Below the pieces are notes generated by a model that did no database searches, was not told the origin of the DNA, and saw only the letters and a program-made list of their open reading frames with translations. A stretch of 34,700 nucleotides of DNA from Okeania sp. SIO3B5 (lineage in GTDB: Bacteria > Cyanobacteriota > Cyanobacteriia > Cyanobacteriales > Microcoleaceae). Each line of letters begins with the position of its first letter. Positions within the stretch are counted from its first letter, which is position 1. The stretch covers positions 1 to 34,700 of the forward strand of contig NZ_JAAHHG010000058.1 of the NCBI RefSeq assembly GCF_010692555.1. Direction: 5' to 3'. A program made the translations under genes and the position numbers. Positions 21,464-34,566 of this stretch are shown one piece after another.

Positions 21464-21877
21464 ATGAATCCTCCTCCAGAACATTCTGAGAAAAAAATAA
21501 ATGATGGGTACTCAAATTCTGCACCAGTTGATGGAGAGTCAGAAGTTTCAGAGACTGATTTTGCACAAGCGCTAGTAGAGGTAGAGCATTCCTTTGCTGC
21601 TCTGAAAAAACGTTATTCTCAAGTTCAGTATTATCAGAGGCGAAAAGCAGAATTAAAGCATCGCTTGGAAGAAGTTCAACCGGAAGTACGTCGCCAAAAA
21701 ACTAATGAATTGAGAAAAGAGTTACAACAGATACAGACAGAATTAGAAACAATAGAATTAAACCTAGAGAGTAGTTTATTTGGTTGGAATAGCATAAAAG
21801 AACCATTTTGGCAAGCTGTGAGATTTGGTGGTTTAGGAATTGCGATCGGTTGGCTGTTAAAGTCTTGTGTTGGATAA
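21464..21877 (+). CDS. Hypothetical coiled-coil protein with C-terminal membrane segment
   Basis: The product has 137 residues. Residues 1-35 are acidic and probably disordered. Residues about 40-105 form a long charged coiled coil (AALKKRYSQVQYYQRRKAEL, then KTNELRKELQQIQTELETIE). The end, AVRFGGLGIAIGWLLKSCV, is a single hydrophobic anchor. This suggests a tail-anchored membrane protein. The family is not identified. Confidence 0.65.
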   Translation: MNPPPEHSEKKINDGYSNSAPVDGESEVSETDFAQALVEVEHSFAALKKRYSQVQYYQRRKAELKHRLEEVQPEVRRQKTNELRKELQQIQTELETIELNLESSLFGWNSIKEPFWQAVRFGGLGIAIGWLLKSCVG

Positions 21878-23070: not shown

Positions 23071-23328
23071 TTGTATCATGTTCACGATCGCCATCAAGCC
23101 ATACGGGAAATTCATCGTGTACTTAAGGAAAGGGGTACGTTCATATTTGATGACCTGGTGTCACCTACACAGAAAATCAACACAATAGCCCGCAAATATG
23201 TCTACGATCGATTGCTGTTTGAACCAATATTTAGCTTGGACTCCTATAAAGATTTCCTGGGTCAGTTAGGGTTGATGGTTTTGGCAGCTAAAGATTTGAA
23301 AGAGCATTTGCACAAGAGTTATGAGTTA

Positions 23329-23560
23329 TATCATGTCCGGATAATCAGTGATAAAAAAACCTTTTCCCTTCTAACCTTACAGCGGTTTTCATTTGGGTAG
23401 ACCACAGTAGGGACGTTCCATGGAACGTCCCTACAGGGTTTTTGTTTGTTAAGATGTGGTTCATCAACTTGAAAAGCGCTGTATTCTTTCCTTCTGCCTC
23501 CTGCCTCCAGCATAGCTGCCTTACCTCCTCCAAAGTGTAAGTATTCAACCGGACATGATA
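23329..23560. mobile_element. MITE-like element B (232 bp) inside the methyltransferase
   Basis: The ends are TATCATGTCCGG and CCGGACATGATA, flanked by TTA on both sides (23326-23328 and 23561-23563). It lies in the orientation opposite to element C. The interior holds a perfect 28-bp palindrome at 23407-23434 (half-site GTAGGGACGTTCCA) and GCCTCCT-type repeats. Confidence 0.92.
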
Positions 23561-23995
23561 TTACTTTCCCAGTTAGCTTTGCCTCAATATCCAGAATTGA
23601 GCGCAGCTTATGATAAAATGTGCGAGGCAATTCAAACCGATAAATTAGGTTGGGCTTATTACTTATGTGAAAAAGTTAGCGATCGCCTCTCCTGGATCTA
23701 CGAAACTAACAACCAACAAAGTCTGCGGGATAAATACGATGCCTGGTCTCGTATTTACGATGCCGAATTGGACCAACCCTATCGCATTAGTCCAATTCTC
23801 TCTGCTAGGGCTCTTGCTGGAGTCCTGCCCGATAAAGAGGCTAGTATCCTCGACGCAGGGGCCGGGACGGGAATGGTAGGAGAAGCCTTGGCCGAACTGG
23901 GTTATAGCAATATAGTAGGAGTCGATTTGTCAGAAGAAATGCTGGAAGTTGCCCGCAATAAACAGGTTGATCGAGCATTGCACCAGGGTAACTTA

Positions 23996-24122
23996 TATCA
24001 TGTCCGGTTGAATACTTACACTTTGGAGGTCCGAAGGCAGGAGGCAGGAGGCAGGAGGCAGAAGGGAAGAAAAGGCGCTCATGAGAAAAAGTTTTTTATC
24101 ACGCTCTTATCCGGACATGATA
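23996..24122. mobile_element. MITE-like element C (127 bp) inside the methyltransferase
   Basis: It has the same TATCATGTCCGG/CCGGACATGATA ends and the same flanking TTA (23993-23995 and 24123-24125). The interior is made of GAGGCAG heptamers (24036-24062). The inserted length plus duplication (130 bp) shifts the frame. Confidence 0.92.
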
Positions 24123-24928
24123 TTAGAAGAACTACTCAAATTTGCAGCTATCGAAAACTTTGATGCTATAATCGCTGTCGGAGTTTTTACCTTTGGTCAT
24201 GCTCCGATCGAAGCCTTGTACAATTTATTCCCCCTGTTAAAAACAGGAGGTTATTTCGTCTTGACAGTACGGGCGGACTACCACGACGATAACCCTGCCG
24301 TCCAAGAAGTTATCAAAAGCCTTTCTTGGAATTTAGTTGGCAAGGAGGAGTTTAACATCTTTGACAAGGAAGCCATGTATGCTATGGTCTTGAAAAAGGA
24401 TTAATTACCTTTGGTCTGACCTGCCCAAGAAACGAGGTTAAAACCTTTGTAAAACAAGTTTGATAAGGGCCAAAATGGAATTATCGAACGGGTCTAATAA
24501 TGGAGTTTTCTAGCAAGTAAACTAACAATAATAAAGATGGCAAGAATTAAATTGATGCACGCCAAGCTTCATCGCGTCAGGGTGACTGAGGCAAATCGCG
24601 ACTATGTAGGCAGCGTTACTATCGACCGAGAATTATTGGAAAAGGTGGGAATACTACCGCTAGAAGAAGTGGAAATTGTAAATATCGACAATGGAAATCC
24701 TTGGTACACTTATGTACTAGCAGGAGAACCTGGAGAAGGTTAGATTTGTCCCAACGGTGGCGGTGCGCTAATGTGCGAACCTGGAGATATCTTGATTATC
24801 TGGGCAAACGAGGAAATAGAGCGATCAGAAGTCTTGCGTCAGGGACACCAGGCGCGAGTGCTAGTCGCCGACGAAAATAACCGGCCTAAGGAAGTTTTCT
24901 ACCAAACTCTTACTCCGAATGGGGAGCA

Positions 24929-26168
24929 TTGACTTAATCAAAGAATAACGATATAATACGTTATAAAACGTACTATTAGACAGGCTGTGTTCACAAATAA
25001 ATGAAATCCATTAGAACCAAACTTAAATTAAATAATCAGCAAAAAACTCTGATGGCTCAACACGCGGGGTATAGCAGATGGTGCTATAACTGGGGTTTAA
25101 GTTTGTGGAATGCTGCATATATTCATGGTTACAAGCCTAATGCTCGAAAGCTAAGAGAGGTTTTTACCAACCAGACAAAGCCTTTATACCCTTGGATGAA
25201 AAACTTGTCATCTAAAGTTTACCAATATGCTTTTATCAACTTAGGTGAAGCATTTAAAAGGTTCTTTAAAGGATTAGGAAAATACCCAAAGTTTAAAAAG
25301 AAGGGTAAACATGATTCATTCACAATAGATAATTGTGGAAAACCAATAGAATTAAATGGATGGAATCATAAATTACCTTTTATTGGTATGGTCAAAACTT
25401 ATGAACCAATTGAAGCAACAACTAAAAAAATAACCATTAGTAGACAAGCTGGTGATTGGTATCTCAGTTGTAGCTATGAATTTCATTCTCATACTACACC
25501 AAAAAAAACTGATGTTATTGGTGTAGATTTAGGTGTGAAAACCCTAGCTACACTAAGTGATGGTCAAGTATTTGAAAGTGTGAAACCACTTCAGAAATTT
25601 GAAGCTAAGTTATCTAGGCTCCAATACCTAAATCGTCACAAAGAGGTAGGCTCTGCTAACTGGAAAAAGGCACAACAAAAGATAGCTAGATTACATAGAA
25701 AAGTAGCAAATATCCGTAAAGATGCACTTCATAAATTGACAACATACTTAGCCAAAAACCACGGCAGAGTCTCAATTGAAGATTTGAATGTAAGCGGAAT
25801 GCTATCCAACCATAAGCTAGCTAAATCAATAGCTGACCAAGGATTTTATGAATTCAGGCGACAACTAGAATACAAGTGCAAATGGTACGGTTCTGAGTTA
25901 GTAGTAGTTGACAGGTTTTTTCCATCATCAAAAACTTGCAGTAGGTGTGGTCATGTCCAAGATATGCCCTTGCATCTGAGAACTTATGATTGCCCAGAAT
26001 GTGGGTTATCAATAGACCGCGATCTGAATGCAAGTATAAATTTAAGAAATGCGGTCGGCTCGGTCGTGAATGCCTGTGGATGAGAAACCGCCGACGGCCT
26101 CAGTAGAAGCAGGAAGTAAACATCAATTTGTTACGTTATGTAACGCTTTGTATCAGTTTTATGGAGCA
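24929..26168 (+). mobile_element. IS200/IS605-type element, tnpB only (copy 2), inserted in panD
   Basis: The left boundary is set after GGAGCA (24923-24928). The left-end sequence TTGACTTAATCAAA, then ATAACGATATAATACGT, is shared with copy 3. The right end contains GAAGCAGGAAGTAAACA and TTTGTATCAGTTTTAT, and closes with GGAGCA (26163-26168). No tnpA is present. The 3' part of tnpB and the right end should encode the omega-RNA, whose guide would be the flank beginning GACTTTGG. Confidence 0.85.
25001..26083 (+). CDS. tnpB: TnpB RNA-guided nuclease of an IS605-type element, apparently intact
   Basis: TnpB proteins are RuvC nucleases guided by an omega-RNA and are ancestors of Cas12. This 360-residue copy keeps the helical N-terminus and the RuvC residues Asp176 (VIGVDLGVKTLA), Glu260 (SIEDLNVSGM) and the DRD at 339-341 (SIDRDLNASINLR). 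The zinc finger is Cys313/316/331/334. No frameshift or stop was seen, unlike copies 1 and 3. It starts 72 bp inside the element's left end. It would depend on a TnpA elsewhere in the genome for movement. Confidence 0.93.
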   Translation: MKSIRTKLKLNNQQKTLMAQHAGYSRWCYNWGLSLWNAAYIHGYKPNARKLREVFTNQTKPLYPWMKNLSSKVYQYAFINLGEAFKRFFKGLGKYPKFKKKGKHDSFTIDNCGKPIELNGWNHKLPFIGMVKTYEPIEATTKKITISRQAGDWYLSCSYEFHSHTTPKKTDVIGVDLGVKTLATLSDGQVFESVKPLQKFEAKLSRLQYLNRHKEVGSANWKKAQQKIARLHRKVANIRKDALHKLTTYLAKNHGRVSIEDLNVSGMLSNHKLAKSIADQGFYEFRRQLEYKCKWYGSELVVVDRFFPSSKTCSRCGHVQDMPLHLRTYDCPECGLSIDRDLNASINLRNAVGSVVNACG

Positions 26169-26356
26169 GACTTTGGAATATAACGGTTATGAAACAGCGA
26201 ACGGTAAACAATTGACTAATTTCTCAGTCATGGTAGATGTGTAAAACTGGGGAAAAATTTAATTGTAAATTGGCCGATCGCCCAATTCTGAAAAGCCAGA
26301 CAAGCAGGACATTCAATTGTGATCGACAACATTGAAGTTACCTTGACGATAAACAT

Positions 26357-27838
26357 ATGTGTGGAATAGTTGGATTTTTTGGCTCAAATTTACTAGGCTT
26401 TGAAGACGCATTGTCAATCTTAGCTCATCGCGGACCGGATGGTACCAGTAGCATTTGCCAGGAAAACTATGCTTTAGGACATAATCGTCTTGCCATTATT
26501 GATGTAGAAGGAGGACAGCAACCATTATACGATCCGCAGAGCAAATTATACGCTATTGCTAACGGAGAAATTTATAACCATCAACAATGGCGCGATCGCT
26601 TGCAGGGAAACTACAACTTCTCAACCAACAGCGATACGGAAATTCTGCTACCGCTCTACCAACAGTTTGGCACTCAGATGCCTCAAAAACTCAGGGGTAT
26701 GTTTAGCTTTATCTTGGCTAGCGATCGGGAATTATTTGTCGCTCGCGATCGCTTAGGCATTAAACCTTTATACTATGCTCAAAGTGAAGAAGGTTTATTT
26801 TTTGCTTCGGAAATCAAAGCTTTAATAAAGCATGGCGAAGAAATTAAAGAGTTTCCTCCAGGACATTATTACCATTCTAATGAGGGTTTACAACCCTACT
26901 ACGATTTACCCGAAGTCGATGTGTTTTTAGAAGATGTAGAGGTGATTTTAGAAAAAATTCGCCAAGGACTTTCTCAAAGTGTCCGCAGGCGTTTAATGTC
27001 TGACGTTCCTGTAGGAGTATTTCTCAGTGGAGGACTCGATTCTAGCATCATTGCGGCCTTAATGAAGCGAGAGCTGTCAGAACTACATTCTTTTTCCACC
27101 GGATTTGCTAACTCTCCGGATATGAAAGCAGCAAGATTAGTAGCAGAATATTTAGGGACAATTCATCACGAATATATTTACTCAGAAGCAGAAATGCTTT
27201 CTGTTCTACCCCAGGTAATTTACCACTTTGAATCCTATGATGCCGCTTGGTTAAGAAGTTGTGTACCTACCTACTTGCTATCTCATCTTGCTAGCCAATA
27301 TGTCAAAGTAGTTCTCGGAGGAGACGCATCAGATGAGTTGTTTGCTGGCTATAGTTATCTAGCTGATTACAATGATGGCAAGACGTTAAATCAAGAATTG
27401 GTATATCGGATTAAAGGATTACATAATCTCAATTTGCAAAAATTAGACAGACTGACAATGGCTCATGGTTTAGAAGCAAGAGTTCCTTTTCTAGATATAG
27501 ACTTTGTGGAAATGGCACTGACTATAGATCCTACCCTCAAGCTTTACCAGAGCTTTGGCATTGAAAAATGGTTGCTCCGTAAAGCTTTTGAAGACTATTT
27601 ACCGCCAGAAATAGTTTGGCGAGACAAGATGGAATTTGCTCATGGTTCTGCTTCCTCTAAAGTTTTAGCAGCTCACGCTGAGGCTACTATTTCTGACGAG
27701 GATTTCGATCAGGCACGCTTTCGGGGAGACCCCATAAAAAGTAAGGAGGAATTACTCTACTACAGGATTTTTGAGCAGTATTTTCCTCAGCCATTTGCCG
27801 TCAATTTAGTTGGCAAGTGGGATCGAACTTTCCATTAA
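26357..27838 (+). CDS. Asparagine synthetase-like glutamine amidotransferase (AsnB family)
   Basis: AsnB-type enzymes use ATP to adenylate a carboxylate and transfer glutamine-derived ammonia to it. The N-terminal glutaminase starts MCGIVGFFG, so Cys2 becomes the nucleophile after Met removal, and keeps LAHRGPDG and ANGEIYNH. The synthetase domain has the ATP PP-loop SGGLDSS (224-230), VVLGGDASDELFAGY and GLEARVPFLD. The 493 residues are somewhat short of E. coli AsnB (554). The intact Cys and synthetase motifs argue for an active amidotransferase. Its place among oxygenases and a decarboxylase suggests a secondary-metabolite acceptor instead of aspartate, which is inference. The upstream ribosome site is weak. 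Confidence 0.93.
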   Translation: MCGIVGFFGSNLLGFEDALSILAHRGPDGTSSICQENYALGHNRLAIIDVEGGQQPLYDPQSKLYAIANGEIYNHQQWRDRLQGNYNFSTNSDTEILLPLYQQFGTQMPQKLRGMFSFILASDRELFVARDRLGIKPLYYAQSEEGLFFASEIKALIKHGEEIKEFPPGHYYHSNEGLQPYYDLPEVDVFLEDVEVILEKIRQGLSQSVRRRLMSDVPVGVFLSGGLDSSIIAALMKRELSELHSFSTGFANSPDMKAARLVAEYLGTIHHEYIYSEAEMLSVLPQVIYHFESYDAAWLRSCVPTYLLSHLASQYVKVVLGGDASDELFAGYSYLADYNDGKTLNQELVYRIKGLHNLNLQKLDRLTMAHGLEARVPFLDIDFVEMALTIDPTLKLYQSFGIEKWLLRKAFEDYLPPEIVWRDKMEFAHGSASSKVLAAHAEATISDEDFDQARFRGDPIKSKEELLYYRIFEQYFPQPFAVNLVGKWDRTFH

Positions 27839-27863
27839 CAAAAACTTAACAGTTCAATTCTTA

Positions 27864-27984
27864 TACCATTTCCAAAAAATCATGCAACAGTAGAACAAAC
27901 CGAAAAACCCTCTTATCTGTTCCCTCTTATCTGTTCTCTGTTCCCTAAAGCGTTGGTACTTTAGAGAATCAAATAAAACTGGTA
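27864..27984. mobile_element. MITE-like element with TACCA/TGGTA ends, TTA-flanked
   Basis: It starts TACCATTTCC and ends AACTGGTA, with TTA on both sides (27861-27863 and 27985-27987). The interior holds repeats of the ATCTGTTCCCT type. The start codon of the next gene is 18 bases beyond the second TTA, so the element sits in that gene's leader. Confidence 0.7.
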
Positions 27985-28004
27985 TTAGTTAAATTCAAGA
28001 AAAA

Positions 28005-28613
28005 ATGGCGACCACAGTTAATTACTATGATGTTCCCTTAAAAAGGTTGAATTCCCAAAATGCTCTGGGATTAGGGGTTGTATTCACGGATATTGAAGAT
28101 GCAAAAATAGAGTTATGCAAATGGCCTACTTCAGGAAAACGACCTCTAATTTCCAAGGGGGGTTACGGTACTGTTATTGAAGAGGAGTTCAGAGTCTATT
28201 GGAAGGGTTCGACCATATTTTCTGCTGGTCATCAGAATGCTCGCGGCGGTCCTGCGGGTAAGATTGTATCCGAACCAGGAAGTAACTCTAAATATCTTCT
28301 AGTAAACTGGCTGAGTGCCCATCTGGATGCAGGAGAAGCTTTTATGCCTAAAAATGGCGAACCAAGTATATTTCTTTTGGCTCCTCCTAAAGAAGATGTC
28401 AAACCTCAAGATTTTGTAGCTCTTTATTCAGATGGTAGTTGTGGCATCTCAATACATCCTGGAGTCTGGCACACAAATCCAATATCACTTTCAGAAAAAG
28501 AAGTAGTTTATCAGAGAAAACAAGGCAGTATTTATGCAACAATCGATTGTGTCTTAACCAAAGAGCATAAGACTTGGTTAAAAATTCCCCTAGGTCAACC
28601 GCAAGACCGTTAA
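28005..28613 (+). CDS. Ureidoglycolate lyase (AllA)-like cupin protein
   Basis: AllA cleaves ureidoglycolate to glyoxylate and urea; the family has a cupin-like beta barrel. The 202-residue product resembles AllA over its C-terminal two thirds. GEAFMPKNGEPSIFLLAPP matches the AllA strand pair, and ALYSDGSCGISIHPGVWHTN matches the signature that in AllA ends in NYHxxxWHHP. The two His residues of that signature are kept (IHPGVWH). The N-terminal 70 residues are longer than in AllA. No purine pathway genes are nearby, so a role in the adjoining pathway, on a ureido or hydroxy-amide-like intermediate, is more likely but unproven. The gene is intact. Confidence 0.72.
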   Translation: MATTVNYYDVPLKRLNSQNALGLGVVFTDIEDAKIELCKWPTSGKRPLISKGGYGTVIEEEFRVYWKGSTIFSAGHQNARGGPAGKIVSEPGSNSKYLLVNWLSAHLDAGEAFMPKNGEPSIFLLAPPKEDVKPQDFVALYSDGSCGISIHPGVWHTNPISLSEKEVVYQRKQGSIYATIDCVLTKEHKTWLKIPLGQPQDR

Positions 28614-28719
28614 ACTTCTATATTCTATTTATCAATAAAAGGAGCATTGACTTAATCAAATAATAACGATATAATACGTCAAAAAGCATACGATTTAGAC
28701 AGGCTGCACTCACGCATAC

Positions 28720-29838
28720 ATGAAATCCATTAGAACCAAGCTCAAACTTAATAATAAACAGAAAACCCTGATGGCTCAACACGCAGGTTATAGCAGATGG
28801 TGTTCTAATTGGGGTTTAAGTTTGTGGAATCAGGCATACAAAGATGGTTATAAACCAAATGCCCATAAACTCAGAGAAGTGTTTACCAATCACACAAAAC
28901 CTCGTTATCCTTGGATGAAAAACTTGTCGTCTAAAGTTTATCAGTATGCTTTTATCAACTTGGGTGAGGCATTTAAGAGGTTCTTTTCCTGCGGAATGCT
29001 TCGCAAACAAGGGTTAGGTAAACATTCAAGATTTAAGAAGAAAGGTAAACATGATTCCTTTCCTTCGGAATGCTTCGCAAACACAATAGATAATTGCGGA
29101 AAACCAATAGAATTAAATGGATGGAGTCACAAATTACCTTTTATTGGTATTGTCAAAACTTATGAACCCATTGAGGCAACAACCAAAACAATCACTATTA
29201 GTAGACAAGCAGGTGACTGGTATCTGAGCTGTAGCTATGAATTTAATGCCACAACTACACCAAAAAAAAAATGATGTAGTTGGTGTAGATTTAGGAGTGA
29301 AAACCTTAGCGACTTTGAGTGATGGTAAAGTTGTGACAAGTATGAAATCTTATCGCAGATTTGAAACTAAGCTGTCTAGAATGCAATACCTAAATCGTAA
29401 TAAAGAGATAGGTTCTGCTAACTGGAAAGCAGCACAACTGAAAATAGCCAGGCTGCATAGAAAAGTAGCAAACATCCGTAAAGACACACTTCATAAATTG
29501 ACAAGATATTTAGCCAAAAACCACGGCAAAATTGTCATAGAAGATTTGAATGTTCGCGGTATGTTAGCCAATCATAAGCTAGCTAAATCAGATAGCAGAT
29601 AGTGATTTTATGAATTCAGGCGACAGCTAGAATATCAGTGCCAATAGTACGGTTCTGAGTTAGTAGTAGTTGATAGGTTTTTTCCATCATCAAAGACTTG
29701 TTCTAGTTGTGGTCACGTTCAAAAAATGCCATTAAATCTAAGGACTTATGACTGCCCGGAGTGTGGGTTATCAATAGATAGAGATTTAAACGCCAGTATA
29801 AATTTAAGAAATGCGGTCGGCTTGACCGCGAATGCCTG
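28720..29838 (+). pseudogene. tnpB: tnpB pseudogene, copy 3
   Basis: It is closely similar to copy 2 but damaged. Two 21-bp small repeats are inserted in frame at 28987-29007 and 29062-29082. A run of ten A residues (29262-29271, one more than the frame needs) shifts the frame after TTTPKKK. The second block (to 29602) ends at a scrambled KLAKS region, and TAG replaces a Trp codon near 29647. Cys pairs and the SIDRDLNASINLRN end remain readable. It is inactive unless the A-run slips, and the later stops make that unlikely to help. Confidence 0.92.
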
Positions 29839-29903
29839 TGGACGGAGTGCTGCCGACAGTTCCGGTGGAAGCAGGAAGTAAACAGTAAAATGTCATATTA
29901 TGC

Positions 29904-29998
29904 GGTGCGACCCCGCGACGACGAAAGTCGCAAGCGGTCAGACCCCGCGTCGCCGTTAGGCGCAAGGGAATGCTGACCAAGAGAGGGAACGCGCACCA
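29904..29998. repeat. GC-rich palindromic repeat inside the tnpB copy 3 right end
   Basis: Ends GGTGCG/CGCACC. It is the inverse of 21911-21974 but contains an extra ~30-bp internal segment (GACGACGAAAGTCGCAAGCG). It splits the right-end sequence, which is continuous in copies 1 and 2. Confidence 0.85.
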
Positions 29999-30035
29999 AG
30001 AGAGACGTTTTATATCGGTTTTATGGAGCAGTAAT

Positions 30036-31355
30036 ATGGTCACATTAGTTCAGCAACTCAAATCGGCTTTTCGCATCCAATCGGTTACCACCGTCGATAA
30101 CGGGGTGCAAATTACTTGGAAAGATGGTCACGAAAGCTTTTATCACAACCTCTGGCTGCGGGATACTTGCCACTGTCCCAAATGTTTCCAACCAAACACA
30201 TTAAGCCTCAACAGTGGAGAAGGAGAAGGACACGACCCCCTGAAAATGCCACTAAATCCGATAACTGAAACGGTCAAAATAGACCCCGACGGAAATTTAG
30301 ATATCATTTGGGGTGGTGAAGAACCGGGACATCATAGTGTTTACGATCCATCTTGGCTGCGAGTTCACTGTCAAAAAGAGCCCGCTCTCAAACAGCGACG
30401 AAAACCCCAACTGTGGGACTCATCGCTGTCCATTCCATACTTCGATTACCAGGAAGTGATGAGAGACGATGAAACGCTACTGCATTGGTTGGATAAAATG
30501 CTGGATGTGGGAATGGTAATTATTGACGGCTTTCCCAAAACGAGAGAAGCATTTCAGGCATTAGTAGAGCGCGTCGGACCGATTCAGCAACGATATCATC
30601 CTACCGACATCTATACTTTAAATACAGAAAACCAACTGGCAGGGAAAATTCACCACTCTTATAAGTACTTGCATCGGCTGGACAATCATACCGATCACGT
30701 CTCCTACAACGTTCCTCCCAGACTTCAATTTCTCGGATGTATTGAATACGACAATCCTGACAATGACAGACAAGGATATTCAACTCTGGTAGATGGTTTC
30801 AAAGTTGCCGAAGTTCTGAGGACTCAGCAGCCAAAATATTTCGAGCTACTCACCCAAGAGTATATATCAACAGGTCGCAGACGGCTCGGTGTAGAGGAAA
30901 AAGTATCTGATAAGGAAAAAGGCACCAAAAAATACCAATGGGAAACCTATCATCGCCAGCACGTCATTAATTTGGATGAAAATGGCGAAGTTTACCAGAT
31001 TCGTCACAATGAAAAAGACCGGGTGCCGCTCGATGTTTCCCCGGACAAAATTCAAGACTTGTACGCAGCCTACCAAGCATTTACTGCCCTAGCTGAATCT
31101 CCAGAGTATAATGCCGAATTTCTTATAGCTCCCGGACAGGTATTGGTAAATGATAACTGGCGACTGCTCCACGGACGGACGGGTATTCACAATCCCCAAC
31201 TGCGACGAGTTTTACTGGGAGCGTATATGAAGCCAGAAACATTCCGCAGCCGACGGCGACTGTTGCTCGGGAAAAAAAGTGGGATGCCGGATATGTGGTT
31301 AATGGGATGTTCGGACCGCGCTTTAGAAATTCTGGCAGACCGCACCACGATCTAA
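30036..31355 (+). CDS. Gamma-butyrobetaine hydroxylase-like Fe(II)/2-oxoglutarate dioxygenase, paralogue 1
   Basis: BBOX/TMLH-type oxygenases hydroxylate trimethylammonium substrates. The N-terminal domain (about 1-115) carries the zinc ligands seen in BBOX: Cys45, Cys47 and Cys50 (LRDTCHCPKC) and His99 (GHHSVYDPSWL). The catalytic TauD/TfdA domain has His218 and Asp220 (LDNHTDHVSYNVPP), His379 (DNWRLLHGRTGI) and a 2-oxoglutarate Arg in RRVLLGAY. About 40 extra residues follow (FRSRRRLLLGKKSG...). I place the start at 30036, just 3' of the IS end. An ATG further upstream at 29970 would add IS-encoded residues. GGAG lies seven bases before this ATG. It is closely related to the gene at 32647. 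Confidence 0.92.
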   Translation: MVTLVQQLKSAFRIQSVTTVDNGVQITWKDGHESFYHNLWLRDTCHCPKCFQPNTLSLNSGEGEGHDPLKMPLNPITETVKIDPDGNLDIIWGGEEPGHHSVYDPSWLRVHCQKEPALKQRRKPQLWDSSLSIPYFDYQEVMRDDETLLHWLDKMLDVGMVIIDGFPKTREAFQALVERVGPIQQRYHPTDIYTLNTENQLAGKIHHSYKYLHRLDNHTDHVSYNVPPRLQFLGCIEYDNPDNDRQGYSTLVDGFKVAEVLRTQQPKYFELLTQEYISTGRRRLGVEEKVSDKEKGTKKYQWETYHRQHVINLDENGEVYQIRHNEKDRVPLDVSPDKIQDLYAAYQAFTALAESPEYNAEFLIAPGQVLVNDNWRLLHGRTGIHNPQLRRVLLGAYMKPETFRSRRRLLLGKKSGMPDMWLMGCSDRALEILADRTTI

Positions 31356-31360
31356 AAAAC

Positions 31361-31438
31361 GACGGCGGGCAGTTCGTCCGTGACAGCTTGTGGACTGGAT
31401 AACGCCGACGTTACCGAGTGGGAAGCAGGAATAGAACA
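31361..31438 (+). mobile_element. Solitary tnpB right-end / omega-RNA-like remnant
   Basis: Six bases after the oxygenase stop, GCGGGCAGTTCGTCCGTGA, then GCTTGTGGA, AACGCCGACG and GGAAGCAGGAATAGAACA, aligns with the end of tnpB and the right end of copies 1-3 (GCGGTCGGCTCGGTCGTGA, GCCTGTGGA, ACCGCCGACG, AGAAGCAGGAAGTAAACA). No tnpB coding sequence precedes it. It is either a scar of a deleted element or a stand-alone guide RNA relic. Confidence 0.7.
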
Positions 31439-31440
31439 GA

Positions 31441-31470
31441 TAATCATAGATTTCTATAGATTATCGTAGG
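31441..31470. repeat. Small hairpin in the oxygenase intergenic region
   Basis: GATAATCATAGA and TCTATAGATTATC are near-perfect inverted arms separated by two bases. It is not followed by a T-run, so termination is not indicated. It could be an mRNA-processing or stability element between the two oxygenase genes. Confidence 0.45.
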
Positions 31471-31520
31471 TTTCTAAGAACGGCTTAAGAGATAACTTAC
31501 CAACTGGATGGAACAATAAG

Positions 31521-32576
31521 ATGTTCTGGACAGCATTTAGTTCGGGAGGGAGAAAGGTATTTTTTGATTATTATTGTCAGTTCAAAGAACCTAAAGATTA
31601 CCGTCCCAGAGAATCTGTTCGGCCAGAGTTTCAATTGAGCGAACAAGACATTAAGTTTTTCTACGAGAATGGATATCTTGGTCCTTTTGATTTAATGTCC
31701 CCAGAGCAAGCGGAAAACTTACGACATGATTTACTAAACTCAGTATCTAACACTGAATCTTTCCTAGCTAACAATTATCAATTTGAGGAAGAAAAAAATA
31801 TTACTGAAGGTCTATTGCCAGTAGCGAAAAATGCACGCAATAAAATAACGGAGGAGTATAAAAAAACCGGACTCAACAGATATAACACTTTCATCAATCG
31901 CCATTTGGATAACTCAAAAATCAGGGACTTATTTAAACTGCCTGAAATCACGGAACGTTGTGCCCAACTATTAGGTCCAGATCTAATTTTATGGCGATCT
32001 GCTTTTTTTAATGTGAGTCCTCATAGTAAGGGTACTCAATTGCATCAAAACAGCACTTGGCTTTATCAGGATATGAGAGAATCTGTTGTCAATCCACCCC
32101 GTACGGATGAACTTTATCAAATAACTTGCTGGGTTGCATTGACAGAAGCTAATGAGAAGAATGGGTGTATGACTCTGGTACCTGGAACTCATAAGGAGAT
32201 GGTTCCCCTTAAACTAGGAGAAAAGTCAATTTATGAAGCCGAAAACTTTCGCTTATATGGTAATAGTTTTTTTGCAGAGCTAGATTATCCAGTTGATAGT
32301 GCAGAGAAAAAGTCGATCGAAATGAAAGCTGGGCAATTCTTTCTGTTTTGCGAGAGAGTTATTCATGGTTCTGTTGATAATACAACAGAAGATTCGAGAT
32401 GGGCAATAAGCGGTCGTTTCGTAAGAACAGACACTCGCATATATACTCAAGAAGTTCTTGAGAAAGGTCATCGAGAAACTTTATACAACATTAAGAACAT
32501 TAGTCTTGATGATTGGAAAGTCGTTTTAATACCTGGGAAAGACCGTTTTGGATACAATAGACTGCTTAAAGACTGA
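31521..32576 (+). CDS. Phytanoyl-CoA dioxygenase (PhyH)-family oxygenase with an HxN facial motif
   Basis: PhyH-family enzymes are Fe(II)/2-oxoglutarate oxygenases that hydroxylate, and in some branches halogenate, small molecules. The 351-residue protein has the family block ITCWVALTEANEKNGCMTLV, then PGTHK. The distal His282 is in VIHGSVDN and a likely 2-oxoglutarate Arg299 in AISGRF. The proximal motif reads GTQLHQNSTWLY, so His175 is kept but the position of the usual Asp is Asn177. It lies between two related BBOX-like genes and looks more AT-rich than either. The spacing of 70 bp to the next gene supports co-transcription. The substrate is unknown. Confidence 0.88.
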   Translation: MFWTAFSSGGRKVFFDYYCQFKEPKDYRPRESVRPEFQLSEQDIKFFYENGYLGPFDLMSPEQAENLRHDLLNSVSNTESFLANNYQFEEEKNITEGLLPVAKNARNKITEEYKKTGLNRYNTFINRHLDNSKIRDLFKLPEITERCAQLLGPDLILWRSAFFNVSPHSKGTQLHQNSTWLYQDMRESVVNPPRTDELYQITCWVALTEANEKNGCMTLVPGTHKEMVPLKLGEKSIYEAENFRLYGNSFFAELDYPVDSAEKKSIEMKAGQFFLFCERVIHGSVDNTTEDSRWAISGRFVRTDTRIYTQEVLEKGHRETLYNIKNISLDDWKVVLIPGKDRFGYNRLLKD

Positions 32577-32646
32577 ATTAAAATGACTGCCAAAAATTTA
32601 GCTCTTTAGTCAGTTCCCTATATTTAAAAAATCTTGGAGGTGTAAC

Positions 32647-33948
32647 ATGACAGCAGTATTGCAGCAACTTAAACCTGCTTTTCGCATCGAATCAGTGGCA
32701 ACAACGAACAACGGTGTCAGCATTACTTGGAAAGACGGTCACGAAAGTTTTTATCATAACCTTTGGCTTTTAGATAGCTGTCGGTCTCCTAAATTCTTTC
32801 ACCGAGATACTTTGAGTATCAGCAGCGGGCACGATGTGATCGAAATGCCTTTAAACCCAACTCCCGAAGAGGTTAAGCTCGATCGCGAAGGCAATTTAGA
32901 TATTATTTGGGGTGGCGACCAAACAGGTCATCAAAGTGTCTTCGATGCCTCGTGGCTGCGGGTTCACTGCCAAAACGACCCGGCCCTGAAGCAACGCCGC
33001 AAACCTCAACTGTGGGACTCGTCTGTGTCGGTGTCTCATTTTGATTGCTATGAGGTGATGAACGATGATGGAGTATTATTGTCGTTCCTCAATAAAATAG
33101 TCGATATGGGAGTGGCAATAATTGACGATGCTCCGAAAAACGAAGAAAGCTTCCGGGCATTGATAGAACGAGTAGGACCGCTACGGCAACGATACCATCC
33201 TACCAATGTGTTTGCGATGGATAGAAGCAACAAAAAGGCTCAGGCTATCCAACATTCCTATCAAGTGGGAACTTTAAGAAATCATACGGATGTTACTGCT
33301 TATGACATTCCTACCGGGCTGCAATTTCTCGAATGCATCCTCTACGAGAACCCAGATGGCGATCGCCAGGCTTATTCTACGGTGATTGACGGTTTCAAAC
33401 TGGCAGAAGTTATCAAAGCAGAAAATCCGTGGTTTTTTGAATTGCTAACCACGGAATATATCCCCGCAGGTCGCAAGCGGCTTTCCGTTGAGGAGAAACT
33501 GGGCGAACATGAATCTAGTGCCCGTAAGTACGAATGGGATGCTTATCGGCACAACCATGTCATTAATTTGGATGAAAATGGGGAGGTGTATCAGATTCGG
33601 TATAACCACAATACACGGATACCGTTAGAAGTTTCTTACGATAAAATTCACGACCTCTTGGCAGCCTATCAGCGATTTTCTCAATTGTTGCAATACCCTG
33701 AATATAATGCCGAATTTTTGTTAACTCCAGGACAGGTATTGGTGGTTGATAACTGGCGAGTTCTTCACGGGCGAACTGGTATTTGGAACCCTAATCTACA
33801 ACGAATTTTATTGGGTGCTTATTTAGAAGAAGAAAGTTTCCGCTGCCGACGGCGAGTTTTATTGGGGGACAAAACGGGGATGTCTGACTTGTGGTTAATG
33901 GGATGTTCGGATCGTGCTTTGGAGATTCTGGCAGACCGACATTTATAA
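32647..33948 (+). CDS. Gamma-butyrobetaine hydroxylase-like Fe(II)/2-oxoglutarate dioxygenase, paralogue 2
   Basis: The 433-residue protein is clearly related along its length to the product of 30036-31355. The catalytic set is present: His213 and Asp215 (LRNHTDVTAYDIP), the distal His in VVDNWRVLHGRTGI, and RRVLLGDK/RILLGAY arginines. The zinc site of the N-terminal domain is eroded, with LLDSCRSPKF replacing LRDTCHCPKC, so only one of three Cys remains. GGAGGTGTAAC before the ATG is a strong ribosome site. It is the last gene of the cluster and is followed by a terminator. It probably acts on a related intermediate with altered specificity. Confidence 0.92.
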   Translation: MTAVLQQLKPAFRIESVATTNNGVSITWKDGHESFYHNLWLLDSCRSPKFFHRDTLSISSGHDVIEMPLNPTPEEVKLDREGNLDIIWGGDQTGHQSVFDASWLRVHCQNDPALKQRRKPQLWDSSVSVSHFDCYEVMNDDGVLLSFLNKIVDMGVAIIDDAPKNEESFRALIERVGPLRQRYHPTNVFAMDRSNKKAQAIQHSYQVGTLRNHTDVTAYDIPTGLQFLECILYENPDGDRQAYSTVIDGFKLAEVIKAENPWFFELLTTEYIPAGRKRLSVEEKLGEHESSARKYEWDAYRHNHVINLDENGEVYQIRYNHNTRIPLEVSYDKIHDLLAAYQRFSQLLQYPEYNAEFLLTPGQVLVVDNWRVLHGRTGIWNPNLQRILLGAYLEEESFRCRRRVLLGDKTGMSDLWLMGCSDRALEILADRHL

Positions 33949-34024
33949 AGAGCTGAAATAAATAATTTTATCTCCCTATTCCCTATTCCCTGACTTCTGC
34001 AAGAAGTCTTTTGAATATGGCTGA

Positions 34025-34069
34025 AGCTCTAGGAATGGCAAAAAATGCCAATTTCTAGGGCTTTTTTTG
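34025..34069 (+). terminator. Rho-independent terminator of the oxygenase cluster
   Basis: AGCTCTAGGAATGGCA pairs with TGCCAATTTCTAGGGCT across an AAAAA loop, with small mismatches, and is followed by seven T residues. It lies 76 bases after the last oxygenase stop codon and points in the same direction. Confidence 0.82.
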
Positions 34070-34352: not shown

Positions 34353-34566
34353 TATCATGTCCGGTTGAATAGTTATAAATAAGGGAGTAGGGAGTAGGGA
34401 GTAGGGAGAATAAAAAGATTTGTACTGCAAGTGACTGTTTTGGTTTTTTTCCAGATCGCTCTTATCCGGACATGATATTACACTTTGGAGGTCCGAAGGC
34501 AGCTATGCTGCTATGCTGCTATGCTGAAGGAAAAGAAAGATTTAAAGGGAGAAGGTTTTTTATCAC
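34353..34566. mobile_element. MITE-like element D joined to a second copy
   Basis: Bases 34353-34477 are a complete element with TATCATGTCCGG/CCGGACATGATA ends and a GTAGGGA heptamer interior (34383-34408). Directly after TTA, the interior of another copy resumes (CACTTTGGAGGTCCGAAGG) and runs to TTTTTTATCAC near 34566. Its own left and right termini are missing. This looks like insertion of one copy into another at TTA, with later loss. Confidence 0.8.

Follow-up and report, generated by a model that had tools for sequence, protein, structure and literature searches.

The stretch of Okeania sp. SIO3B5 analyzed here (the window, 34,700 nucleotides in full; contig NZ_JAAHHG010000058.1) carries at positions 23071 to 34069, on the plus strand throughout, a partly broken, decaying copy of a real, rare biosynthetic cluster. 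Its seven genes code, in order, for a two-domain S-adenosylmethionine (SAM) methyltransferase (MT), PanD, an AsnB-like amidotransferase, an AllA-like protein, and two GBBH-like oxygenases (gbbA and gbbB) with a PhyH-family enzyme between them. With a probability of about one-half, we read the cluster here as one that spreads horizontally, is decaying in this copy, and serves to make a small zwitterionic compound by a beta-alanine route with the steps proposed below. An earlier note, made from the sequence alone, placed all of the genes on the plus strand where we find them, and its AsnB-like, AllA-like, two BBOX-like, and PhyH genes are open and match their families; its inventory is the right one, but the first two genes are broken and two tnpB genes lie inside the row (Table 1).

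Recurrence, transfer, and decay of the cluster

The same seven-gene order is found in two other genomes, so the set is not a chance association. A pattern-based scan with the PhyH protein against genome contigs, covering 84,980 species with a single genome each, gave 19 loci with a relative, two of them close, in Hormoscilla sp. GM7CHS1pb (98%; locus L037) and Candidatus Paraprochloron terpiosi LD05 (83%; L038). Both have MT-panD-asnB-allA-gbbA-phyH-gbbB on one strand, with the unbroken panD and two-domain methyltransferase whose recurrence the earlier note had suggested looking for. All seven genes are open in LD05; in GM7CHS1pb, as assembled, the first four genes (MT, panD, asnB, and allA) are open, the gbbA frame runs on unbroken from residue 12, phyH has a frame shift close to its start, and gbbB is split. 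The NCBI taxonomy places the two hosts in separate orders and families (Gomontiellaceae and Prochloraceae). Excerpts of the source papers give a Lamellodysidea sponge, clade III, as the source of GM7CHS1 (PMC7313196) and describe LD05 as the dominant cyanobacterial symbiont of Terpios hoshinota (PMC12465263). A further copy, in congener G004 (L096), lies at the same chromosomal site as that in the window, with panD, asnB, allA, gbbA, and gbbB open and the methyltransferase in remnants. At its phyH position is a 499-aa open reading frame (ORF; L096:11608-13107) for which neither Pfam nor NCBIfam gives a match at 1e-4 and the start of which resembles by eye that of a 516-aa ORF at L105:6891-8441.

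Pairwise codon comparison of the window, GM7CHS1pb, and LD05 (omitting the GM7CHS1pb gbbB because of its split frame and giving no omega for saturated MT and panD pairs) shows that the cluster genes are under purifying selection. Omega is below 0.37 in every pair with usable synonymous divergence (dS) bar the phyH pair of the window and GM7CHS1pb, ranging from 0.08 to 0.17 for MT, 0.07 to 0.19 for panD, 0.21 to 0.36 for asnB, 0.14 to 0.26 for allA, 0.07 to 0.22 for gbbA, and 0.09 to 0.11 for gbbB, and reaching 0.32 to 0.34 in the two phyH pairs with LD05. Between GM7CHS1pb and LD05, dS is 2.06 for MT, 0.49 for panD, 0.14 for asnB, 0.21 for allA, 0.17 for gbbA, and 0.27 for phyH; between the window and LD05, it is 1.05 for panD, 0.12 for asnB, 0.22 for allA, 0.13 for gbbA, 0.26 for phyH, and 0.50 for gbbB. 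Nucleotide identity between LD05 and GM7CHS1pb jumps between panD and asnB, from 77% on the MT-panD side to 93% on the asnB side. The low dS of the last five genes between hosts of different families (0.02 to 0.53) suggests that asnB-gbbB was transferred recently, the MT-panD part having apparently diverged for much longer.

The cluster is rare. A gbbA match at 1e-40 occurs in 1 of the 386 sampled genomes of the phylum, the window's own, in a draw that is incomplete in that G004 and LD05 came from other searches, and an AllA match at 1e-5 occurs in 2 of the 386. PhyH matches at 1e-3 are present in 40 of 98 relatives, mostly weak and to other PhyH-type proteins, and all 45 records from a plasmid search with PhyH have less than 60% identity. 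The seven-gene set was not found described in the open-licence literature searched (titles and abstract openings), in keeping with the earlier note, which knew of no described pathway with these genes.

At its left border the site has up137, a gene present in all five genus genomes searched (G000 to G004). The site is empty in G001, where up137 is followed by 412 bp and then by the asparaginyl-tRNA synthetase gene (asnS, identified by a model in G004 and by likeness of the first residues in the other genomes), and the G004 cluster fills that gap; the window contig stops short of the right-hand border. In G002 the same gap holds genes of diaminopimelate (DAP) decarboxylase-like, HD, ATP-grasp, GBBH-like, alanine dehydrogenase (AlaDH)-like, PhyH (with the HQN motif discussed below), SDR, methyltransferase, and DUF2785 types (L032:3916-13659), and the G003 gap contains two genes, one of them resembling by eye the G002 AlaDH-like gene. 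We read the up137-asnS gap as a place where such clusters have landed repeatedly. Analogous sets in congeners pair Orn/Lys/Arg- or DAP-type decarboxylases with GBBH genes, PhyH genes, or both. Two of these (L033:8197-13303 and L035:8011-14522) have DUF3326, a SyrB2-lineage PhyH (HQT), and an Orn/Lys/Arg-type decarboxylase, and L035 also has a C-domain-type methyltransferase, a CmcI-type methyltransferase, and a TmpA-like GBBH.

The window methyltransferase, listed in the earlier note as a bi-domain enzyme, is in three remnants by alignment to an intact 468-aa homologue, with two miniature inverted-repeat transposable elements (MITEs) in the gaps and no piece at this locus matching residues 1 to 143. 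MITEs with TATCATGTCCGG ends have split the gene; with one mismatch allowed, the window contains 7 occurrences of the motif, versus 0.03 expected. Genome-wide, this family with its inverted ends numbers 253 copies having exact ends and 90 to 120 bases between them, and a reversed control pattern gave 0 copies in the Okeania sp. SIO3B5 genome.

The earlier note also had all of the genes ending at one terminator, and a stem-loop followed by seven T can be read there by eye. A simple terminator scan does not list the site, and terminator-like sites in the window number 9 versus 11.3 in shuffles, so the single terminator is a reading by eye. The window contains no tRNA and no Rfam family at gathering score.

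Table 1. Features of the cluster and its flanks in the window
Feature	Coordinates	Strand	Evidence or remark
up137, flanking gene	21464..21877	+	Pfam: no match at 1e-4; left border of insertion site common to five congeneric genomes
Methyltransferase remnant a	23071..23328	+	aligns to residues 144-229 of 468-aa homologue
MITE-like element 1	23329..23560	.	TATCATGTCCGG inverted ends; 232 bp, exceeds common copies in length
Methyltransferase remnant b	23561..23998	+	aligns to residues 229-384 of 468-aa homologue
MITE 2	23996..24122	.	TATCATGTCCGG inverted ends
Methyltransferase remnant c	24123..24404	+	aligns to residues 376-468 of 468-aa homologue
panD pseudogene	24537..24932	+	in-frame TAG 24741-24743 (codon 69); Gly-Ser self-cleavage site retained
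IS605-type tnpB	25001..26083	+	open; cluster-internal insertion; Pfam
AsnB-like glutamine amidotransferase	26357..27838	+	open; family match
AllA-like, distant ureidoglycolate lyase family	28005..28613	+	open; family match
IS605-type tnpB	28720..29820	+	broken; DNA resembles open copy 25001-26083
GBBH-like Fe/2-oxoglutarate (2OG) oxygenase A (gbbA)	30036..31355	+	open; family match
PhyH-family enzyme, SyrB2/CytC3 lineage	31521..32576	+	open; HQN metal-site motif; between gbbA and gbbB
GBBH-like Fe/2OG oxygenase B (gbbB)	32647..33948	+	open; 64% identical to gbbA
Stem-loop, then T-run	34025..34067	+	likely transcription terminator; read directly from sequence
Third MITE of same family	34353..34477	.	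TATCATGTCCGG family; 3' of cluster

The methyltransferase-panD pair

At each of the seven loci found to carry both methyltransferase domains, whole or as remnants, panD follows directly on the same strand. These are the window, GM7CHS1pb, LD05, L069 (contig C177 of the same genome as the window), L083 and L096 (both in G004, the L096 methyltransferase consisting of remnants of both domains), and L103 (G010, of another genus; with stops). Relatives of one half were left uncounted, namely the N-half relatives at G000:C545, G001:C1, G425:C162, and G010:C228, a short N-half match at G002:C238, and the C-half relatives at G000:C166, G003:C201, and G002:C143; no panD was matched at N-half loci L084, L085, L104, and L105 or at C-half loci L086, L087, and L035. 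The NCBIfam matches of the N domain include sarcosine/dimethylglycine and phosphoethanolamine N-methyltransferases. Because panD follows the two-domain methyltransferase at every one of these loci, the best candidate for the first step of the pathway is the methylation of beta-alanine or one of its derivatives, for which the gene linkage gives good support. Beta-alanine betaine as the product we infer more cautiously, since relatives of the enzyme include N-, O-, and C-methyltransferases and the cut-off is reached for none of the 25 NCBIfam models listed.

The panD gene is open across its domain at the six other loci (L037, L038, L069, L083, L096, and L103), the PanD model cut-off is reached by both of the open copies that were scored (L038 and L096), and all seven cluster-type copies, the window's included, keep the Gly-Ser self-cleavage site as YVGS in the alignment. 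The window copy is interrupted by the in-frame TAG and has Pro where the other eight aligned panD sequences carry Arg. The aspartate decarboxylation and N-methylation proposed in the earlier note find backing in the linkage at seven loci, but both genes are broken in the window. An open methyltransferase-panD pair is nonetheless present elsewhere in the same genome, on contig C177, and its panD is the only open one found in the assembly (96.9% complete); pantothenate synthesis in this strain may depend on it. LD05 has a single panD match, located in this cluster. Where G002 and G003 have an open primary-type panD (L071:6878-7234 and L072:7142-7498), the Okeania sp. SIO3B5 genome has a remnant interrupted by three TAA codons (L070:10280-10405).

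Methyltransferase, panD, and GBBH genes stand in a row with pterin-type genes at L069:1601-10446 and L083:8511-18497. The pterin-type neighbors are HPPK, SDR, a divergent FolP-like protein, and PTPS at L069 (Pfam) and are assigned by likeness at L083, where a CmcI-type methyltransferase (Pfam) is also present; L103 has, by likeness, the order HPPK-methyltransferase-panD-GBBH. A separate, far stronger FolP is present in each of G000, G004, and G010. A pterin-linked product of rows of the L069 and L083 type is conceivable. The single-domain methyltransferase relative at L085:4480-10162 adjoins two diaminobutyrate transaminases (EctB type).

The amidotransferase, the AllA-like protein, and the oxygenases

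The AsnB-like protein shares with Escherichia coli asparagine synthetase B its domain order, Cys2, SGGLDSS, and a score to the same model. It differs from the E. coli and human enzymes in having GDASDE for GEGSDE and AW for the TT of YDVTTIR/YDITTVR, positions that we take to carry functional weight, and from the E. coli enzyme also in being clustered with oxygenases and in not being present in every congener. As no match at 1e-40 is found in three of six genomes (G001, G002, and G003), the window asnB is not a housekeeping gene, and its product is probably an amidotransferase acting on another acid rather than an enzyme of plain asparagine synthesis.

The AllA-like assignment holds in that the protein passes the Pfam gathering score for ureidoglycolate lyase (PF04115, 25.1 versus 23), but it is a weak match that covers residues 98 to 164 only. 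In the NCBIfam ureidoglycolate lyase equivalogs it scores 29.5 bits against a cut-off of 230 for the best-scoring model, it matches the solved structure PDB 2bdr at 5e-5, and unlike AllA it does not have ureide pathway neighbors. An AlphaFold2 model was discarded because its mean pLDDT of 27.4 made it unfit for a fold search. A 33% identical AllA-like relative in G268 (L062:7635-11284) lies near ORFs that look by eye like phosphonatase, FAD oxidoreductase, and NUDIX genes, and the Okeania sp. SIO3B5 genome carries a fragment of a G268-type AllA-like gene (L061:2279-2539).

Among solved structures BBOX1 is the nearest to both GbbA and GbbB, which score 235.4 and 212.7 bits with the gamma-butyrobetaine dioxygenase model (TIGR02409, cut-off 414.75) and 174.8 and 167.3 with the TmpA model (NF049936, cut-off 400). 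For the GBBH beside MT-panD at L069, the nearest solved structure is TmpA, and TmpA is the best-scoring model for this protein (237 bits) and for the second L083 GBBH (252 bits), both below the cut-off of 400. The earlier note had named two placements that would tell against its proposal, asnB in plain asparagine synthesis and the oxygenases firmly in carnitine metabolism; the patchy presence of asnB and the low carnitine-model scores speak against both.

The PhyH protein scores well above the gathering score for its family (PF05721, 95.4 versus 22), and among solved chains it is closest to SyrB2 (1.6e-26) and CytC3 (1.7e-24), with phytanoyl-CoA dioxygenase behind them at 4.8e-10. The best Foldseek matches of a predicted structure of mediocre quality (pLDDT 54.7, pTM 0.62) agree with the sequence search. 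Its score with the chlorinating enzyme model is below the cut-off (TIGR01762, 144.5 versus 226.3), and its metal site is neither that of the halogenases nor the HxD...H of hydroxylases but HQN...H, with Asn at the position of the halogenase Ala or Gly and the hydroxylase Asp. We aligned 16 rows, comprising the window, 11 of the 19 scan loci, L032, L033, L035, and L036. HQN is shared by the window, L037, L038, and L032; HQE is present in L039, HQT in L033 and L035, HQG in L043, HQA in L040, L041, L042, L044, L045, and L036 (as in SyrB2), and HQD in the SAR11 loci L046 and L050. A FastTree tree rooted on SAR11 was built from 17 sequences over 367 columns (the near-identical L037 dropped, SyrB2 and CytC3 added, and the motif column kept in). 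It unites the HQN proteins in a single clade (0.977), the sister of which is an HQA protein (0.987), and sets them among HQA and HQG proteins; the deeper node joining the HQE and HQT branches has a support of only 0.354. The simplest reading is that the Asn arose from a halogenase-type Ala, and by descent, as judged from these alignments, the protein is not an ordinary hydroxylase. Of the three oxygenases to which the earlier note assigned hydroxylation, one is thus of the SyrB2/CytC3 halogenase lineage.

Proposed pathway and alternative readings

In the route that we propose, PanD would convert aspartate to beta-alanine, as its family and residues suggest, and the two-domain methyltransferase would act on the beta-alanine amine to give N-methylated beta-alanine or beta-alanine betaine. 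The AsnB-like enzyme would amidate some acid other than aspartate, the two GBBH-like oxygenases and the SyrB2-lineage His/Asn/His enzyme would oxidize the skeleton, and the AllA-like protein may act on some polar intermediate. The open pair on C177 could still feed methylated amine to the five open window genes. The product is probably a small, oxygen-decorated compound from beta-alanine; the first step draws on linkage, and those beyond it we infer from the enzyme families.

Several observations weigh against this route, one of them from an alignment of gbbA and gbbB rows with BBOX1, TmpA, and DfmD. The Fe ligands HxD...H are kept in all six gbbA/gbbB rows aligned. At positions 177, 181, 194, and 366, which we take to be the BBOX1 aromatic cage (Y177/W181/Y194/Y366), these rows read H, Y or F, H, and Y and are aromatic at two of four, in an alignment that is uncertain near position 194, with a Tyr two columns off. 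The L069 GBBH and the first L083 GBBH read G, Y, E, and Y. An excerpt of PMC9296572 describes aromatic binding of the BBOX1 substrate and acid binding by N191 and N293; here, K or A stands at position 191 and E or H at 293, and the adjoining 292 keeps N. With most of these residues changed, a betaine need not be the substrate of GbbA and GbbB, nor need they bind a trimethylammonium acid in the BBOX1 manner. The earlier claim that the BBOX-like enzymes act on such an acid is thus not upheld, and we dropped trimethylammonium as a proven substrate. Also unfavorable are the AsnB score above the asparagine synthetase B cut-off (NF006949, 568.1 versus 499), the methyltransferase matches to O- and C-methyltransferases, with the cut-off reached for none among 25 NCBIfam models listed, and the state of the congeneric copies (G000 and G004), in both of which the methyltransferase is broken and later genes are present and open, G004 being without phyH. 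The phyH omega of 0.66 between the window and GM7CHS1pb, at a dS of 0.02, is uninformative. Finally, MT-panD and asnB-gbbB have diverged very unequally (dS of 2.06 for MT and 0.14 for asnB between GM7CHS1pb and LD05), so there may be two pathways.

Two adjacent units, with MT-panD giving methylated beta-alanine and a co-traveling asnB-allA-gbbA-phyH-gbbB giving something else, are a possibility that we consider rather unlikely though deserving of weight. The divergence jump between panD and asnB is as such units would have it, and MT-panD occurs without asnB, allA, and phyH in the stretches of L069, L083, and L103, with pterin-type genes nearby; however, the units adjoin at all four loci found with asnB-allA-gbbA-gbbB (the window, L037, L038, and L096), and GBBH-like genes come after MT-panD in both settings. 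Somewhat less probable still is that PhyH is an active halogenase or an enzyme of cryptic chlorination and cyclization, in which chloride would push the Asn ligand aside or take its place. Its nearest solved relatives are halogenases, 6 of the 16 aligned rows are HQA and 1 is HQG, and the HQN clade is nested among such proteins beside an HQA sister. The substrates of SyrB2 and CytC3 are carrier-bound amino acids, and no carrier-protein gene was noticed among window ORFs of at least 80 aa; in addition, Asn rather than Ala or Gly occupies the halide position, and the chlorinating-enzyme cut-off is not reached. Oxygenases without the carboxylate can also hydroxylate, as AspH does with two His ligands according to an excerpt of PMC10947486.

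It is improbable that the product, as beta-alanine betaine or a hydroxylated form of it, is a compatible solute instead of a specialized metabolite. Beta-alanine betaine is a known osmoprotectant and the product of a plant N-methyltransferase (excerpt of PMC9699165), but one methyltransferase would suffice for it, leaving the amidotransferase, the AllA-like protein, and three oxygenases superfluous, and the distribution is very patchy, with gbbA in 1 of the 386 sampled genomes. Ordinary metabolism, by carnitine hydroxylases and asparagine synthesis, we think very improbable indeed: the AsnB score and the nearness of BBOX1 to GbbA and GbbB are what it would predict, but the carnitine model cut-offs are far from reached, the cage is not kept, and asnB is unmatched in half of the six genomes. 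We reject it on the model scores, the changed residues, and the patchy distribution.

The beta-alanine route that we favor has a parallel in the chemistry of TmpA and DfmD, the substrate of which is 2-(trimethylamino)ethylphosphonate (TMAEP), DfmD-clade genes occurring in operons with N-methyltransferases (excerpt of PMC9296572). In both, a trimethylated two-carbon amino acid analogue would meet a GBBH-family oxygenase, beta-alanine betaine being the carboxylate counterpart of TMAEP, and TmpA is the best-scoring model for the L069 and second L083 GBBH proteins, neither of which reaches its cut-off. The cluster differs in that its amine would come from PanD and no phosphonate gene was noticed in it, in that GbbA and GbbB are nearer to BBOX1 with most cage and acid-binding residues gone, and in its additional AsnB-like, AllA-like, and SyrB2-lineage genes. 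With the SyrB2 and CytC3 halogenases, PhyH has sequence family and fold in common; they have Ala at the metal site in place of Asn, and no carrier-protein gene was noticed among the window ORFs of 80 aa or longer.

Dysibetaines are betaines of the trimethylammonium type, and some of them bear cyclopropane and amide groups; we know of no biosynthetic genes for them, and no paper on their biosynthesis appeared by title in the open-licence literature searched. The sponge Dysidea herbacea is now placed in Lamellodysidea. Dysibetaines come from D. herbacea according to reference titles, and a Lamellodysidea sponge houses Hormoscilla (excerpt of PMC7313196). Nothing found in this analysis ties the cluster to these compounds. 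It is a doubtful idea that sponge-symbiont cyanobacteria of different families share a recently transferred route of beta-alanine betaine formation, amidation, and oxidation to an unusual, possibly dysibetaine-like zwitterion, in which the key step would fall to an ex-halogenase with its metal site refilled with Asn, a 2-His/Asn iron enzyme of new reactivity such as ring closure.

The cluster offers a candidate bacterial beta-alanine N-methyltransferase and may represent a carboxylate counterpart to TMAEP/DfmD chemistry. The natural series of HxA, HxG, HxN, HxT, and HxE sites in one protein group may show how enzymes of the halogenase lineage lose or change their reaction.

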